Positions 8,746 through 36,090 of a stretch of DNA of 64,000 nt are shown here, in pieces. Made by a program: the position numbers and the translations under genes. Position 1 is the first letter of the stretch; every line of letters begins with the position of its first letter. Source of the stretch: Arthrobacter sp. V1I7 (lineage in GTDB: Bacteria > Actinomycetota > Actinomycetes > Actinomycetales > Micrococcaceae); NCBI RefSeq assembly GCF_030817015.1, contig NZ_JAUSYS010000001.1, forward strand, positions 3,224,001 through 3,288,000, written 5' to 3'. Under the pieces are notes generated by a model. That model was not told where the DNA came from and did not search any database. It saw nothing but the letters and a program-made list of their open reading frames with translations.

Positions 8746-9564
8746 GGCAGGACTGCAGGGTAAGCCCGCCGCCGCCAGGCAGGACCGAAGCCCCCGGGTG
8801 CCATCACACCCGCCGCGGGGCAAAGCCGAAATCAAGCGGCCATCAGCGCCTTACGCCCCGACGCCCGGCGTGCTCGTGGCGGGGGTCTGCGGTGCAGGAA
8901 GGACCATCCACAACGAGCCAAGGTGCCGCGTTTTCATTCACAGCAGCGATGCCTTCTCGGCGTCCTGGACGAGCGAGGAATATTAGGCCCGTCGATGGCC
9001 CATCAGATGCTCAAGCCCATATAATTAATCTGGTAGTATATCCCATTCCTTGAGGCTAGTTTCATTGTACGCGGGGTTTAGCCCGCGTGACGCGATCCAT
9101 ATGGGTTGCATACCGATCTGTATCTCGTAACTTTCTGAGGTGTTCCTCAGTGATGTCGTCGCCACCCGCCTCTTAGCCGCAGTCCGCTTCCATCTCAACG
9201 GACCGCGAGCTCCAAGGATGCTAATTAACGGGCAGTTCTGTTCCGGGCTCTTCCATGCAAGGTGACGCCCCGGCATCTAGGAGATCCGGGCTCCGAAAGT
9301 CCGTCAGGGAGGACCTGATCGGATGAATCACCACGTCAACAATTCCGTCACGATAGCCGGCGTTGCGGGCCGTTGATGACTTGAGGACCTGGCCATCAGC
9401 CGCTCCCGCTACGGCCACGTCAGACCCCGTAAGCGTCATGACAAGGGGTAATTGCGGACGCCATCCCTGCACGCGGGAGGTTGCTAGCCGTCACCTCACC
9501 CGGAGCAGATTCTTTGATCCACACTCGTTGCGTGCATTATCTTGAACTATCTATGGAGGTTCCG
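8746..9564 (+). other. 819-bp gene-poor region of lower GC upstream of the lectin-like gene
   Basis: No convincing gene. Base composition drops from about 8990, with AT-rich stretches such as ATAATTAATCTGGTAGTATA near 9020. A perfect 7-bp inverted repeat (ACGCGGG/CCCGCGT, loop of 6) lies at 9069-9088. A minus-strand open frame at 9221-9472 (83 aa) resembles nothing I recognise. The end of the region carries the probable promoter of the next gene. It looks like inserted or decayed DNA. Confidence 0.5.
9514..9543 (+). promoter_or_regulatory. Candidate promoter of the propeller gene
   Basis: -35 TTGATC (9514-9519), 18-bp spacer, -10 TATCTT (9538-9543). The start codon is 21 nt further on behind a strong GGAGG, so this transcript would be leadered, unlike many neighbours. 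Confidence 0.4.
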
Positions 9565-10716
9565 ATGTCTGAGACACGAACCAACTCTTCAACCCCACCA
9601 GGTGCTTCTGACGGCGACTTGCGGCAAGCAATCAGCCGACGCCAAACCCTGAAGGCTGGCGCTGGCATCCTCGCTGTGGCTGCCCTGCCGATTTTCAAGC
9701 AACAGGTGCCCTTGGCGGACCGTGCGGCTTCCGTTCCCCTCACGGCCCCGGTGCGATCCGGACGCCTGGAGGCTTTCGGCCGCGGCAGCGACAAAGCCCT
9801 CCACCACAACTGGCAGCTGCCTCCGGGTAACGTCTGGAGCGGCTGGTCATCATTAGGCGGCGGCGTCGACCAACCGGCTATCGGACGCAACGGCGATGGG
9901 CGCCTCGAGGCCTTCGTTGTTGGAAACGACCACGCGCTCTGGCATAACTGGCAGCTAAGCCGGGACGGGGCGTGGAGCGGCTGGGCTTCCCTTGGCGGCT
10001 GGGTTAACCAACCCACCATCGGGGAGAACCAGGACGGGCGCCTGGAAGCCTTCGTCGTCGGCAGCGACCACGCGCTCCACCACAACGTGCAAAGCGGTCG
10101 CGTATGGAGCGGCTGGGCTTCCCTTGGCGGCTGGGTCGCCGAACCCACCATTGGGCACAACGCGGACGGCCGCCTTGAAGTCTTCGTTGTCGGCAGCGAC
10201 AAAGCGCTCCACCACAACTGGCAGGCGAGCCCGGGTGGGGCATGGAGTGGCTGGGCTTCCCTTGGCGGCTCGGTTAGCCAACCCACTGTCGGGCAAAACG
10301 GGGACGGACGCCTGGAAGTCTTCGTCGTTGGCAACGACCGCGCGCTCTGGCACATCTGGCGAGACGGTGCCGGCTGGAGCGGCTGGAATTCCTTGGGCGG
10401 CTGGGTCGACCAACCCAAAGTCCACCGCAACGCAGACGATCGGCTTGAAGTCTTTGTTGTCGGCAGCGACAAAGCGCTCTGGCACAACTGGCAGGTAGCC
10501 CCGAGCGGGGCATGGAGCGGCTGGGCGTCCCTGGGTGGCCAGTGCGACAAACCTGCGGTCGCCCGGAACCCGGATGGACGACTCGAAGCCCTCGTCATCG
10601 GAAGCGATCACGCCCTCTGGCACAGATGGCAGCTAACCCCCGCAGGTGCTGCCTGGAGCGACTGGACCTCGCTCGGCGGCTGGATCGATCAACTGGCCGT
10701 GGACGTCAACGCGTAG
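9565..10716 (+). CDS. Tat-exported seven-bladed beta-propeller lectin-like protein (PLL/PHL-like repeats)
   Basis: 383 aa from ATG 9565, with GGAGG 5 nt upstream. Residues ~28-50 form a twin-arginine signal (SRRQTLKAGAGILAVAAL, followed by PIF). The mature part is almost entirely seven tandem repeats of 44-48 residues, each DGRLEVFVVGSDKALWHNWQ-like, then WSGWASLGG, then a xPxxGxN loop; seven copies suggest a closed seven-bladed propeller. The pattern resembles the Photorhabdus PLL/PHL fucose-binding propeller lectins, so sugar binding at the cell surface or outside the cell is inferred. No enzyme motif or anchor is visible. GC is lower than the neighbours, and the gene sits in a patch flanked by duplicated gene fragments, which suggests acquisition. 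Confidence 0.75.
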   Translation: MSETRTNSSTPPGASDGDLRQAISRRQTLKAGAGILAVAALPIFKQQVPLADRAASVPLTAPVRSGRLEAFGRGSDKALHHNWQLPPGNVWSGWSSLGGGVDQPAIGRNGDGRLEAFVVGNDHALWHNWQLSRDGAWSGWASLGGWVNQPTIGENQDGRLEAFVVGSDHALHHNVQSGRVWSGWASLGGWVAEPTIGHNADGRLEVFVVGSDKALHHNWQASPGGAWSGWASLGGSVSQPTVGQNGDGRLEVFVVGNDRALWHIWRDGAGWSGWNSLGGWVDQPKVHRNADDRLEVFVVGSDKALWHNWQVAPSGAWSGWASLGGQCDKPAVARNPDGRLEALVIGSDHALWHRWQLTPAGAAWSDWTSLGGWIDQLAVDVNA

Positions 10717-30146: not shown

Positions 30147-31136
30147 GTGGACTATTTCCTGCAGGGCCCCCCGTGGGCAGACTTCCAGCGCGCGCTTGGC
30201 CGGACTGTCCATGAAGAGTCCGGACCCGGCTGGAGCTTCCTCGCGGTCGAGGAGTCGAACCCGGCCGGGAAGCTGCTGTACGCGCCCTACGGTCCGGTGG
30301 CCGCATCGCTGGAAGCGTTCGACGCCGCGCTGGCGGCGCTGACGGAACTGGCACGTCGCCGCCGCGCGGTGTTCGTCCGGATCGAGCCGGTAAGCGCCGG
30401 CCTGGCAGTCCCCGACGCCGCCGCCCTGCTGCGCGGCCGCGGCCTGCAGCCCGCGCCGGCGAACCAGCAGCCCGAGCTCAGCTGGATCGTGGACCTGGAC
30501 CGCGACTTCAAGGAAGTCCTGGCGGACATGAAACCGGTGAACCGCAACCTGTACCGGAACATCCATAAGAAGGGCGTGACATTCCGCTCCAGCCGGGATC
30601 CGGCCGAGATCTCGGTGTTGCTGGAGTTCCTGCACATGACGGCCGCCCGCAACGGTTTCAAGCCCCAGAGCGATGAATACCTGAGCCAGGTGGCCCGTTC
30701 CCTGATGCCGGCCGGGGCCGCGACGCTGTTCATCGCCGAACTGGAGGGCACGCCCATCGCCGCCGCCCTCGCATACGATTCGGCGGACACCCGCACCTAC
30801 GCGCACGCCGCCCTGGACGATACCCACCGCAAGCTCAGTGCCGGGATTCCGCTGCTGGTGACCCTGATCGCCGATGCCCAGGAAAAGGGCCTGAAGCACG
30901 TGGACCTCTGGGGTGTGGCCCCCGAAGACCAGCCGGACCACAAGTGGGCCGGTTTCACGGCGTTCAAGAAATCGTTCGGCGGACGCGGGGTCGAGTACCC
31001 GGGCACCTGGGATCTGCCGGTGCGGAAGCTGCGCTATGCCGGGTACCAGCTCGCCCGCCGGGCTGCGCAGGCCGCGAAGACGATCCCCGCGAAGCTCCGA
31101 CCGTTGAGGGACAAGGTCACAGCTATCCGGCGCTGA
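30147..31136 (+). CDS. FemABX-family peptidyltransferase (interpeptide bridge enzyme)
   Basis: 329 aa from GTG 30147. Two GNAT-like halves: MDYFLQGPPWADFQRALGRT at the N-terminus, then MKPVNRNLYRNIHKKGV (basic, for the lipid II pyrophosphate or tRNA) and the C-terminal GLKHVDLWGVAPEDQ, HKWAGFTAFKKSFGG typical of FemX/Fem-like proteins. Such enzymes add amino acids from tRNA to lipid II; Micrococcaceae have Ala, Ser or Thr-containing bridges, so this enzyme probably builds one. Which residue it adds cannot be read. Coupled to manA. Confidence 0.88.
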   Translation: MDYFLQGPPWADFQRALGRTVHEESGPGWSFLAVEESNPAGKLLYAPYGPVAASLEAFDAALAALTELARRRRAVFVRIEPVSAGLAVPDAAALLRGRGLQPAPANQQPELSWIVDLDRDFKEVLADMKPVNRNLYRNIHKKGVTFRSSRDPAEISVLLEFLHMTAARNGFKPQSDEYLSQVARSLMPAGAATLFIAELEGTPIAAALAYDSADTRTYAHAALDDTHRKLSAGIPLLVTLIADAQEKGLKHVDLWGVAPEDQPDHKWAGFTAFKKSFGGRGVEYPGTWDLPVRKLRYAGYQLARRAAQAAKTIPAKLRPLRDKVTAIRR

Positions 31137-31939
31137 CTTGCCGCTGGCCAGCCGCCCGCCGACCACTGGACATGCCCCCCGCTAAGGCCGGCGGGTGGAC
31201 AGAATGCCACTCTGCGCATTCCCGGGCGCGACCACTGGACATGTCCCCCGCTGCGGCTGGCGCGTAGGCCTGCCCCGCCCGCCGACCAGTGGACATGCCC
31301 TCCGCTAAGGCCTGCCCCGCCCGGCGACCGCTGGACATGCTCCCCGCTAAGGCCCGCGAGCGGACAGAATGCCACTCTGCTCATTCCCCGGCGCGGCCAC
31401 TGGACATGTCCCCCGCTGCGACTGGTGCCCCGGCCTGCCCCGCCCGCCGACCACTGGACATGCCCCCCGCTAAGGCCGGCAAGCGGACAGAATGCCACTC
31501 TGCTCATTCCCCGGCGCGGCCACTGGACATGTCCCCCGCTGCGACTGGCGCGCAGCCCGCCCCACCCGCCGACCACTGGACATGCCCACCGCTAAGCCCC
31601 GCGAGCGGACAGAATGCCACTCTGCTCATTCCCCGGCGCGGCCACTGGACATGTCCCCCGCTGCGACTGGCGCGCAGCCCGCCCCACCCGCCGACCACTG
31701 GACATGCCCACCGCTAAGGCCGGCGAGCGGACAGAATGCCACTCTGCTCATTCCCGGGCGCGGCCACTGGACATGTCCCCCCGCGGGCGGCCGGCGCGCA
31801 GCCCGCCCCACCCGCGACCACTGGACATGTCCCCCGCTGCGGCGGCGCCGGCGCCGGACGCAGCAGATCCCGGGGCGCGGAGCGCGTCCCGGGATCCGGT
31901 GGTGGTGCTGATGTGCTGCGGACGCTGGTCCGCGGCGGC
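31137..31939. repeat. Tandem direct-repeat array, ~122-bp period, 12 copies of a 12-bp core
   Basis: Core CCACTGGACATG begins at 31163, 31232, 31286, 31328, 31397, 31451, 31520, 31573, 31642, 31695, 31764 and 31818; the copies at 31286 and 31328 carry one change. Two types alternate: A continues GCCCCCCGCTAAGG, B continues TCCCCCGCTGCG and contains the palindrome GGACATGTCC. A to B is always 69 bp; B to A is 53-54 bp. Between A and B, CAGAATGCCACTCTG recurs five times. One A-A step is 42 bp, an internal deletion. The period is not a multiple of three, so the long frames through it change peptide at each unit and are not genes. It lies between two convergent genes. Confidence 0.9.
31866..31896. 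terminator. Strong bidirectional hairpin at the end of the repeat array
   Basis: 14-bp arms (GATCCCGGGGCGCG, one G-U pair) and a 3-nt loop between convergent Fem-like and glpX genes. No T tract. Confidence 0.6.
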
Positions 31940-32977
31940 CTAGCCCTTGCGGGCGTAGCCTTCCCACTTGCTGGCCTGGTGCTCGCCGTCCACGAACCTG
32001 ATGGTGCCGGACTTGGACCGCATCACGATGGACTGGGTGAGGACCTTGTCCCTGGAGTAGCGCACACCCTTCAGCAGGTCGCCGTCGGTGATGCCGGTGG
32101 CCGCGAAGTAGCAGTTGTCGCTGGAGACGAGGTCGTTGGTGGACAGCACGCGCTCCAGATCGTGGCCGGCGTCGATGGCCTTCTGCTTTTCGTCATCGCT
32201 CGTGGGCCACAGGCGGCCCTGGATCACGCCGCCGAGGGACTTGATGGCGCAGGCCGCAACGATACCTTCCGGTGTGCCGCCGATGCCCATCAGCGCGTCA
32301 ACACCCGTGCCGGAACGCGCCGCGGCGATGGCGCCGGCGACGTCGCCGTCCATGATGAACTTGGTGCGTGCCCCGGCTTCACGGATTTCCTCCACGAGCG
32401 GGCGGTGCCGGTCGCGGTCCAGGATCATCACGTTGAGCTGGTTGACCTTGACGCCCTTGGCCTTGGCAATCAGGTGCAGGTTCTGCTTGACCGGCAGGCG
32501 CAGGTCCACCATGTCGGCGGCTTCCGGCCCGGTTACGAGCTTCTCCATGTAGAACACGGCGGAGGGGTCGAACATTGAGCCACGTTCGGCCACGGCCAGC
32601 ACGGCCAGGGCGTTGTTGATGCCCAGCGCGGTCAGCCGGGTTCCGTCAATCGGGTCGACGGCGACATCACACTCGGGGCCGGTGCCGTCACCGACGCGTT
32701 CGCCGTTGAACAGCATCGGCGCCTCGTCCTTTTCGCCTTCACCGATGACCACAACGCCGTTGAAGTGGACCGTCTGCAGGAAAGAGCGCATGGCGTCGAC
32801 GGCAGCACCGTCCGCCTTGTTCTTGTCCCCGAAGCCAACCCAGTGGCCGCCGGCGATAGCCGCGGCTTCGGTGACGCGGACCAGTTCCAGTGCAAGGTTG
32901 CGGTCAGGCTCGTCGATCCCGACGGCGAGAGACGGGGAAAGCGTGGAATACTTCTGGGTCATTGGCGCTGGTGTCAC
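31940..32977 (-). CDS. glpX: Fructose-1,6-bisphosphatase class II
   Basis: 345 aa from GTG 32977, preceded by GAAGAGG at 5 nt. Metal-binding DPIDGT at 108-113, GEGEKDEAPML at 80-90, and ALMGIGGTPEGIVAACA are the GlpX signature. Dephosphorylates fructose-1,6-bisphosphate in gluconeogenesis; this class is the main FBPase of actinobacteria. Divergent to the DUF4245 gene, as Rv1099c/Rv1100. ATG 32962 (MTQKYSTLSP) is the alternative start. Confidence 0.95.
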   Translation of the reverse strand: MTPAPMTQKYSTLSPSLAVGIDEPDRNLALELVRVTEAAAIAGGHWVGFGDKNKADGAAVDAMRSFLQTVHFNGVVVIGEGEKDEAPMLFNGERVGDGTGPECDVAVDPIDGTRLTALGINNALAVLAVAERGSMFDPSAVFYMEKLVTGPEAADMVDLRLPVKQNLHLIAKAKGVKVNQLNVMILDRDRHRPLVEEIREAGARTKFIMDGDVAGAIAAARSGTGVDALMGIGGTPEGIVAACAIKSLGGVIQGRLWPTSDDEKQKAIDAGHDLERVLSTNDLVSSDNCYFAATGITDGDLLKGVRYSRDKVLTQSIVMRSKSGTIRFVDGEHQASKWEGYARKG

Positions 32978-34544: not shown

Positions 34545-35981
34545 ATGACTTCCACTGAAGAGTTGAACACCGAAGAGTTCCGCATTGAACACGACACGAT
34601 GGGCGAAGTCCGCGTCCCCGTGAATGCTCTGTACCGCGCCCAGACGCAGCGTGCGGTCGAGAACTTCCCCATCTCCGGCAAGACGCTGGAACGCACCCAC
34701 ATCGAGGCGCTCGCACGGGTCAAGAAGGCTGCCGCCCAAGCCAACGCAGAACTGGGAGTGCTCGACGGCGAGCTGGCCCAGGCGATCGCCGACGCTGCCG
34801 ATGAGGTTGCTGCCGGGAAGTACGACGGCGACTTCCCCATCGACGTCTTCCAGACCGGCTCCGGCACGTCCTCCAACATGAACACCAACGAGGTCCTCGC
34901 CGAGCTTGCCTCCCGTGCCCTCAAGGCCGCCGGCAGCGACAAGGTCGTCCACCCGAACGACCACGTCAACGCCTCGCAGTCCTCCAACGATGTCTTCCCG
35001 ACGTCGGTCCACGTGGCTGCGACCTCCGCGCTGATCAATGACCTGATCCCGGCGCTGGACTACCTGGCGAAATCGCTGGAACGCAAGGGCGTCGAATTCA
35101 AGGACGTCGTGAAGTCCGGCCGCACACACCTCATGGATGCCACCCCGGTCACCTTGGGCCAGGAGTTCGGCGGCTACGCTGCGCAGGTCCGTTATGGCAT
35201 CGAGCGCATCAACGCCTCCCTCCCCCGCGTGGCCGAAGTTCCCCTCGGCGGCACGGCCGTCGGCACCGGCATCAACACCCCGGCCGGTTTCCCGGAGCGC
35301 GTGATCGAACTCCTCGCCGCCGACACTGGACTGCCGCTGACCGAGGCCCGCGACCACTTCGAAGCGCAGGCCAACCGCGACGGCCTGATCGAGGCCTCGA
35401 GCCAGCTGCGCAATATCGCGATTTCCTTCATGAAGATCAACAACGACCTGCGCTGGATGGGCTCCGGACCCAACACCGGCCTCGGTGAAATCGCGATCCC
35501 GGATCTGCAGCCGGGCTCCTCGATCATGCCCGGAAAGGTCAACCCGGTCATCTGCGAAGCCTCCATCATGGTCTGCGCGCAGGTCATCGGCAACGACACC
35601 GCCATCGCTTGGTCCGGCACCAACGGCGCCTTCGAACTGAACGTTGGCATCCCGGTCATGGCCGCCAACCTGCTCGAATCCGTGCGCCTGCTCGCCAACA
35701 CCAGCCGCGTCATGGCGGACAAGATGATCGACGGCATCACCGCGAATGTGGAGCGCGCACGCTTCCTGGCCGAGGCCTCCCCGTCCATCGTCACCCCGCT
35801 GAATAAGTTCATCGGCTACGAAAACGCCGCCAAAATCGCCAAGAAGGCTGTGGCCGAGGGCCTGACCATCCGCGAAACGGTGGTGGCCATGGGCTTCCTC
35901 GAACGAGGCGAACTGACCGAGGAACAGCTGGACACCGCCCTGGACGTCATGTCCATGACGCGTCCGCCGCACAAGGCCTAG
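34545..35981 (+). CDS. fumC: Fumarate hydratase class II
   Basis: 478 aa. Hydrates fumarate to malate in the TCA cycle. Seen: [14 protein letters not shown], the [18 protein letters not shown] segment, [17 protein letters not shown], and the catalytic-loop signature [11 protein letters not shown] at 324-334. The C-terminus lacks long extension. Same direction and block as glpX-DUF4245 homologues in mycobacteria. The last 11 bases of the gene are the first unit of a 16-bp tandem repeat that runs past the stop. Confidence 0.96.
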
Positions 35982-36029
35982 CCACCACAAGGCCTAGTGA
36001 CCACAAGACCGAGCCACCACAAGGCCGAG
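35971..36029. repeat. Short tandem repeat, 16-bp period, across the fumC stop
   Basis: ACAAGGCCTAG at 35971 and 35987, ACAAGACCGAG at 36003 and ACAAGGCCGAG at 36019: four copies at exact 16-bp steps. The first copy contains the fumC stop codon. Confidence 0.85.
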
Positions 36030-36090
36030 TCACAGCGATGCCGCAGCCGCCCCGGGCGATGCCCGCGGTCACTGATCGTCCGCCGTCGGC

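Follow-up and report, generated by a model that had tools for sequence, protein, structure and literature searches.

The 64,000-bp stretch of the Arthrobacter sp. V1I7 chromosome analysed here (the window) contains, in the gap between two convergent genes, a tandem array whose units are diverged and locally amplified and belong to a family of extragenic modules restricted to one lineage. That the array belongs to such a family, dispersed over the genome, is close to certain. The reading that we tentatively favour is that the modules are extragenic sites comparable to BIMEs and bound by a putative protein at gene 3' ends.

The array between the femX-like and glpX genes

The array lies at 31163-31829, where CCACTGGACATG was matched 12 times, ten times exactly and twice with one mismatch (31286 and 31328), in agreement with the twelve cores of the original prediction. 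In the whole 64-kb window we counted 13 matches, one of them outside the array and with two mismatches, and none of 100 dinucleotide shuffles reached that number. The alternation of two repeats, A and B, that had been described there holds for five pairs, with A-to-B steps of 69 bp and B-to-A steps of 53-54 bp, but is interrupted once by a step of 42 bp from 31286 to 31328 that marks a partial unit. By eye the palindrome GGACATGTCC is located within the B cores and CAGAATGCCACTCTG occurs five times, once in each A-B pair, both as predicted. Analysis of 31310-31838 with TRF gave a period of 122 bp, 4.3 copies and 93% matches, and the local tandem expansion that had been proposed is supported.

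Although the tandem array is real, its true unit is a three-part module of 79 bp of which A and B are the outer boxes. The unit consists of an L box (GGACATGyCC), 19 bp, a 21-bp dyad (GGACATA-N7-TATGTCC), a further 19 bp and an R box (GGrCATGTCC); the A and B repeats correspond to the L and R boxes and CAGAATGCCACTCTG to a decayed central dyad. The unit is symmetric, with three dyads whose centres are 34.5 bp apart on either side, and the consensus L and R boxes, GGACATGCCC and GGGCATGTCC, are reverse complements of each other, giving the terminal inverted repeats expected of a MITE, which are clearest in G086, a genome of another genus of the same family.

The array is made of five such units, all on the minus strand, and two lone boxes. 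Unit 1 (31168-31246; profile E 6.4e-12, the minus strand scoring better) has its L box at 31168-31177, a decayed 21-bp core at 31197-31217 and its R box at 31237-31246. The L box, core and R box are at 31333-31342, 31362-31382 and 31402-31411 in unit 2 (31333-31411; E 2.0e-10), at 31456-31465, 31485-31505 and 31525-31534 in unit 3 (31456-31534; E 1.1e-10), at 31578-31587, 31607-31627 and 31647-31656 in unit 4 (31578-31656; E 1.5e-11) and at 31700-31709, 31729-31749 and 31769-31778 in unit 5 (31700-31778; E 1.7e-11). The partial unit is a lone box GGACATGCCC at 31291-31300 and the array ends with a lone box GGACATGTCC at 31823-31832, both placed by eye and from the 12-mer matches. The profile was built from sequence only, using 68 units of which none came from the window's genome, and it found all five units with E values of 6e-12 to 2e-10 on the better strand. 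As the window pairs match this profile, they are family members with the core decayed to GGACAGAATGCCACTCTGC.

The location between convergent genes was confirmed. The left neighbour is a femX-like gene on the plus strand (30147-31136; FemAB Pfam, E 4.8e-24) and the right neighbour is glpX, encoding fructose-1,6-bisphosphatase, on the minus strand (31940-32977; E 1.1e-139). The array starts 26 bp past the end of the femX-like gene and ends about 107 bp from glpX. Just 3' of glpX and outside the repeat, a strong hairpin at 31866-31896 (DNA fold of 31855-31910: -20.4 kcal/mol, z -4.2) is likely the glpX terminator. Reading frames are open across the array, but the one frame that was tested (31037-31576, minus strand) has no Pfam family and no homologue at E 0.001 with 7990 candidates scored; a coding repeat was rejected from this frame, and the prediction that the array is non-coding is supported. 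The periods, 122 bp in the window and about 125 bp in the relative G010, are not multiples of three. Since G010 is a single-contig genome and carries an array in the same gap, an assembly artefact was rejected as well.

Among the 30 genomes in which we examined the femX/glpX gap, the window's genome and G010 (three units) have arrays with the same decayed core, and G014 and G031 have better preserved arrays directly after femX. A further 13, with both genes in view, showed no array; in another 13 the stretch did not reach the femX side, where an array may be present. Two other repeats were noticed in the window: an ORF at 9481-10716 has, by eye, roughly six repeats, each some 45 residues long (WSGWxSLGGWVDQPTIG...) and a twin-arginine-like start, and a 16-bp repeat, CACAAGGCCGAGCCAC, is present in four copies (35970-36033) at the end of a gene that by eye is fumarase-like.

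Spacing of boxes and cores

The most conspicuous property of the unit is its rigid geometry. In 162 cores from the named loci the left box is at -29 in 122 and the right box at +40 in 121 (130 with a looser half), and hardly elsewhere nearby; 159 distinct units went into the alignment. When cores were picked by their left side, the R box was at +40 in 222 of 251 named-locus cases and at 39 or 41 in 5, with no other position between 22 and 61 occupied; the window's genome, for which the right core half was no requirement, had it at +40 in 59 of 62, these counts coming from both strands so that a two-box core counts twice, and from arrays whose units are related. In G086, G163 and G005 together the R box was at 40 in two and at 39 in two of seven left-picked cases, the pattern being unsuited to the GCGC ends of G086, whose boxes occupy the same positions when the units are read directly. 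The core middle measures 7 nt in all 157 named cores (a length that the fetching pattern demanded), and in 17 of 17 cores of the window's genome and 22 of 22 others (partly fetched with a profile or pattern favouring 7).

The sequence between these fixed points is not kept, spacer identity between different loci being 0.43. Nor are the two spacers of a main-clade unit complementary, with Watson-Crick pairing of 0.42 in 161 named units and 0.39 in 23 of the window's genome, so the constant lengths are not accounted for by a hairpin. Constant length with neither conserved sequence nor base pairing is the pattern expected from a protein complex on duplex DNA, and the earlier proposal that kept spacing and diverged flanks point to a protein-binding lattice is supported.

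Between units the picture is less regular. Box-to-box steps group at 23, 29, 32, 43, 52 and 62 bp. Distances between adjacent boxes, leaving out the 69-bp distance of the unit itself, have a peak period of 10.25 bp (0.41) that was equalled by none of 500 jittered sets, although this exclusion was chosen after the data had been seen and the frequent 29-bp step is out of phase; with the 69-bp distances included the 8-14 bp range has its strongest period at 12.25, and the signal at 10.5 bp is weak (0.18). Boxes outside the core unit are 0.762 identical versus 0.535 for their flanks (151 of 188 locus pairs usable), a difference to be read with the loci having been fetched by the core pattern, with the tendency of MAFFT to pair boxes with boxes and with 129 outer-box cases that had no aligned partner.

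Distribution and gene context of the family

Copies of the 12-mer with one mismatch form clusters elsewhere in the genome, where the better preserved triad form is visible. A profile search of the window's genome gave 139 rows on both strands, corresponding to at least 70 units at 29 loci, all on contig C1 (best 150 of 3546 candidates scored). The array is thus no one-off, and the search of relatives that had been proposed did find copies in Arthrobacter-group genomes. The 21-mer core, allowing up to 3 mismatches, is present in 10 of 59 genomes, namely that of the window and nine relatives of the same genus, and the reversed core used as a control gave zero matches in any of the 59. Forward core counts are 26 in the window's genome, 20, 10, 24, 18, 12, 8 and 11 in seven relatives, 1 in G005 and 2 in G029; the matches in G029 are probably due to chance. 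A box-plus-core scan of named genomes gave at least 120 stretches, and the 80 among the matches listed are all from Arthrobacter or Pseudarthrobacter. At E 1e-6 the profile found units in 8 of 295 genomes of the family (G086 and seven of the window's genus, counting its own genome) and in 3 of 396 genomes of the order (all of the window's genus, itself included), both surveys using stricter filters and sampled genomes. A 47-bp match to the array used as query in G057, from another family of the order (E 1e-4), was discarded as it has no GGACAT box (L037).

In a rough tree built from glpX of 30 genomes, most of its forks being weak, presence of the family takes 4 changes versus 7.9 with shuffled labels; inheritance is mostly vertical with few gains or losses. 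The family is absent from most of the genus and is therefore not essential. Another extragenic palindrome family, CGCGAACGkACACTTGnGGCC, whose copies are frequently paired in inverted orientation (L223, L233), has between 14 and 45 forward matches per genome in 11 genus members (G002, G004, G005, G016, G018, G020, G024, G028, G030, G032 and G036) and 0 in the window's genome; in several genomes it lies by eye directly 3' of glpX. Among 37 genus members searched by pattern, both palindrome families occur together only in G005 and G032. G018 and G024 are without the GGACAT family yet stand among carriers on the glpX tree. A search of the open-access literature found no description of the repeat, the motif matches being by title mostly p53 sites and primers. 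In line with the original prediction, which knew of no described family, this extragenic symmetric repeat family of Arthrobacter is apparently previously undescribed.

To describe the gene context we took 100 array sites of the named loci. Leaving out 4 that the gene calls placed within an ORF and 2 with a neighbour missing, we merged the remaining 94 into 60 distinct gene pairs. Of these, 29 are convergent, 23 tandem and 8 divergent, compared with 29, 90 and 46 among 165 further gaps (100 bp or longer) from these loci, a convergent excess (29/60 vs 29/165, OR 4.4, p 1e-5) accompanied by a deficit of divergent gaps (8/60 vs 46/165, p 0.03); gene calls were made de novo and some tandem partners are spurious frames across arrays. 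In the window's genome the 29 arrays are 11 convergent, 12 tandem and 6 divergent versus 20, 53 and 29 of 102 other gaps, an excess in the same direction but weaker. Siting between convergent genes is a tendency of the family, not a rule. Arrays recur at the same gene pairs across several species, with up to 5 loci per pair.

Among the ORFs near 120 named loci, of which the 40 largest clusters were inspected by eye, no cluster generally adjoins the arrays. The widest is ABC-transporter-like (33 of 120 loci), and regulator genes seen beside arrays are Crp-like (8), LuxR-type (7) and XRE-type (6); no candidate binding protein was found among the genes beside arrays at these 120 loci. A terminus function, one of those suggested for the array, is not supported: it lies at 3.255 Mb, mid-replichore, with dnaA at C1:4619750. 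No dif-like site was found with an ad hoc pattern in 18 stretches scanned. The array with most units in the window's genome (G000), seven at C1:2167192-2168064 (L286), lies roughly 20 kb from the point opposite dnaA. Two further loci are within 100 kb, and 1.53-2.09 and 2.17-3.08 Mb hold none of those listed, though the loci are few.

Known systems, alternative readings and possible role

Extragenic palindromes are best known from proteobacteria, and the RAYT transposase explains the spread of many of their families. BIMEs are bound by IHF and Pol I, REPINs are paired REPs acting as miniature mobile DNA, and BOX elements and MIRUs are modular or tandem intergenic repeats of variable copy number, which the Arthrobacter arrays resemble by description, not by sequence. 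Our working analogy is the BIME, as both are clusters of extragenic palindromes at regular spacing that favour convergent gaps. REPs are extragenic and often lie between convergent genes, as outlined in PMC1525189, and the Arthrobacter family also shares with REP/BIME systems its palindromic, clustered and multi-copy nature and its restriction to a lineage. Unlike a REP, which is one hairpin of 20-40 bp, its unit has three dyads at fixed spacing. Searching 14 carriers, we found Y1_Tnp (PF01797) in one (G032) and no Y1/RAYT gene in 13, including the window's genome (0) and G086 (82% complete), and membership of the REP/RAYT system was rejected because this cognate IS200/IS605-like gene is missing. 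The statements of a 2010 paper on their distribution place RAYT homologues in no major bacterial lineage other than gammaproteobacteria (PMC2817692). Further unlike REPs, the units show no excess of GTAG within 15 bp outside the boxes (1 of 159 units, compared with 5 further out); GGAG is more frequent beside boxes (41/159 vs 23/159 further out) but far from general. The CGTC-tagged REPs, as summarised in PMC3733652, are likewise a short palindromic family apparently without a dedicated transposase, but differ in size and structure, and CGTC is not in excess beside our units (10/159 vs 18/159 further out).

The strongest competitor of the protein-bound site is a selfish hairpin of the REPIN or MITE kind, with inverted 36-bp halves that flank a 7-nt middle of variable sequence; some enzyme would once have spread it, and it would now be mostly decayed, locally amplified and without host function. 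The seven G086 copies read by eye are all single 79-bp units with 10-bp inverted ends near GCGCATGTCC/GGACATGCGC, and have arms of a few shared types with varied 7-nt middles, as in REPINs, where a short variable middle separates two inverted half-elements. Their spacer complementarity averages 0.57 (7 units), one copy folds as a single hairpin at -38.5 kcal/mol (z -12.4), and these single units look like a younger, mobile state. The patchy presence across the genus and the REP-like extragenic siting outlined in PMC1525189 also fit such an element. On the other hand, the same gene pairs are occupied in several species; main-clade copies keep boxes and spacing but lose arm complementarity and the Y1 transposase is missing in 13 of 14 carriers, two points in which the family departs from REPINs. 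In 14 isolated units there was no clear signal of target-site duplication (best z 2.5 over 96 settings, with low power). The box-plus-core pattern had 0 matches in viral contigs and one 460-bp array used as a blast query had none in plasmids, and a phage or plasmid element was rejected on these grounds; the core alone matched four viral contigs, taken as chance from their number. Three chosen copies fold as long hairpins (z -6.5, -11.5 and -12.4), but a whole-unit hairpin as a general rule was rejected for the main clade, whose spacers are not complementary. As the hairpin evidence is mixed and the G086 units look younger and mobile, the selfish element retains about one third of our credence.

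That the family acts instead as an RNA hairpin at mRNA 3' ends, terminating transcription or protecting the message, is unlikely. The preference for 3' ends would agree with it, and so would the extension of the core stem (unit positions 20-28 with 50-58), which covaries (z 4.9), and a weak bias in tandem gaps, where 32 units have the orientation of transcription and 16 the opposite (p 0.03). However, the loop length is invariant, covariation is absent between L and R boxes (z 1.1), as it also is in the core middles (z 0.3), and main-clade spacers do not pair. The single window unit folded with DNA parameters was not more stable than shuffled sequence (z -1.0), and there is a separate strong hairpin at glpX. 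No Rfam family matched the array of the window or those of seven other loci at gathering thresholds, and a known structured RNA was rejected; a c-di-AMP riboswitch match was seen elsewhere in the same genome (L085 16522-16680). Strong covariation was also noted for unit positions 19-22 and 59-62. It concerns two positions that are three apart in a spacer and lie at the same site in both, and it fits a unit with a direction.

A recombination site, with the 21-mer (reminiscent of lox, Xer and TnpI sites) as a tyrosine-recombinase core with a free 7-bp overlap, the boxes accessory and copies recombining within an array, is very improbable: the inverted arms around a fixed 7-bp variable middle, the same half-site in the flanking boxes and the likeness of middles in neighbouring units (0.89 vs 0.82 for spacers in 42 pairs; 0.81 vs 0.70 in 20 more diverged pairs) would suit it, but tandem duplication explains that likeness, middles within one array sometimes differ (L150) and reading the 40 largest flanking ORF clusters by eye brought no recombinase to notice.

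We return to sites bound by a protein on duplex DNA, for which the rigid +40 spacing, the N7 middle and the diverged spacers were counted, as were the convergent preference, the kept boxes, the 13 of 14 carriers without Y1_Tnp and the 10.25-bp period. Counted against it were the failure to find a candidate protein, the patchy presence in the genus, the 12.25 period when 69-bp distances are kept, the weaker convergent excess in the window's genome and the sampling caveats on box conservation, together with the covarying stem extension and the strong folds of three copies, which would be superfluous in a pure duplex-binding model. A putative sequence-specific DNA-binding protein would recognise GGACAT half-sites and assemble on duplex DNA across the symmetric triad, and tandem units may allow a longer nucleoprotein filament. 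At the 3' ends of genes such a filament could serve as a roadblock in both directions or as a topological insulator. BIME-2 of E. coli is bound by gyrase according to the account in PMC6379681, and the mode of action might be similar here but with another protein.

From the point of view of the family, what we describe is an actinobacterial extragenic palindrome family whose carriers, in 13 of 14 cases, lack a RAYT-type gene and whose geometry is much stricter. A more doubtful step is to see in it a new chromosomal site system, in which a putative actinobacterial GGACAT-binding protein would form complexes of fixed geometry at the ends of some 30 pairs of genes, where it would insulate convergent transcription or organise the nucleoid; relatives lacking the sites carry the other palindrome family or neither, so that sites would turn over within the genus. 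The strict spacing predicts a nucleoprotein complex that should be recoverable with a 79-bp bait. The family could reveal by what means high-GC bacteria keep convergent genes apart, and whether sites of this kind serve a host function or are parasites.
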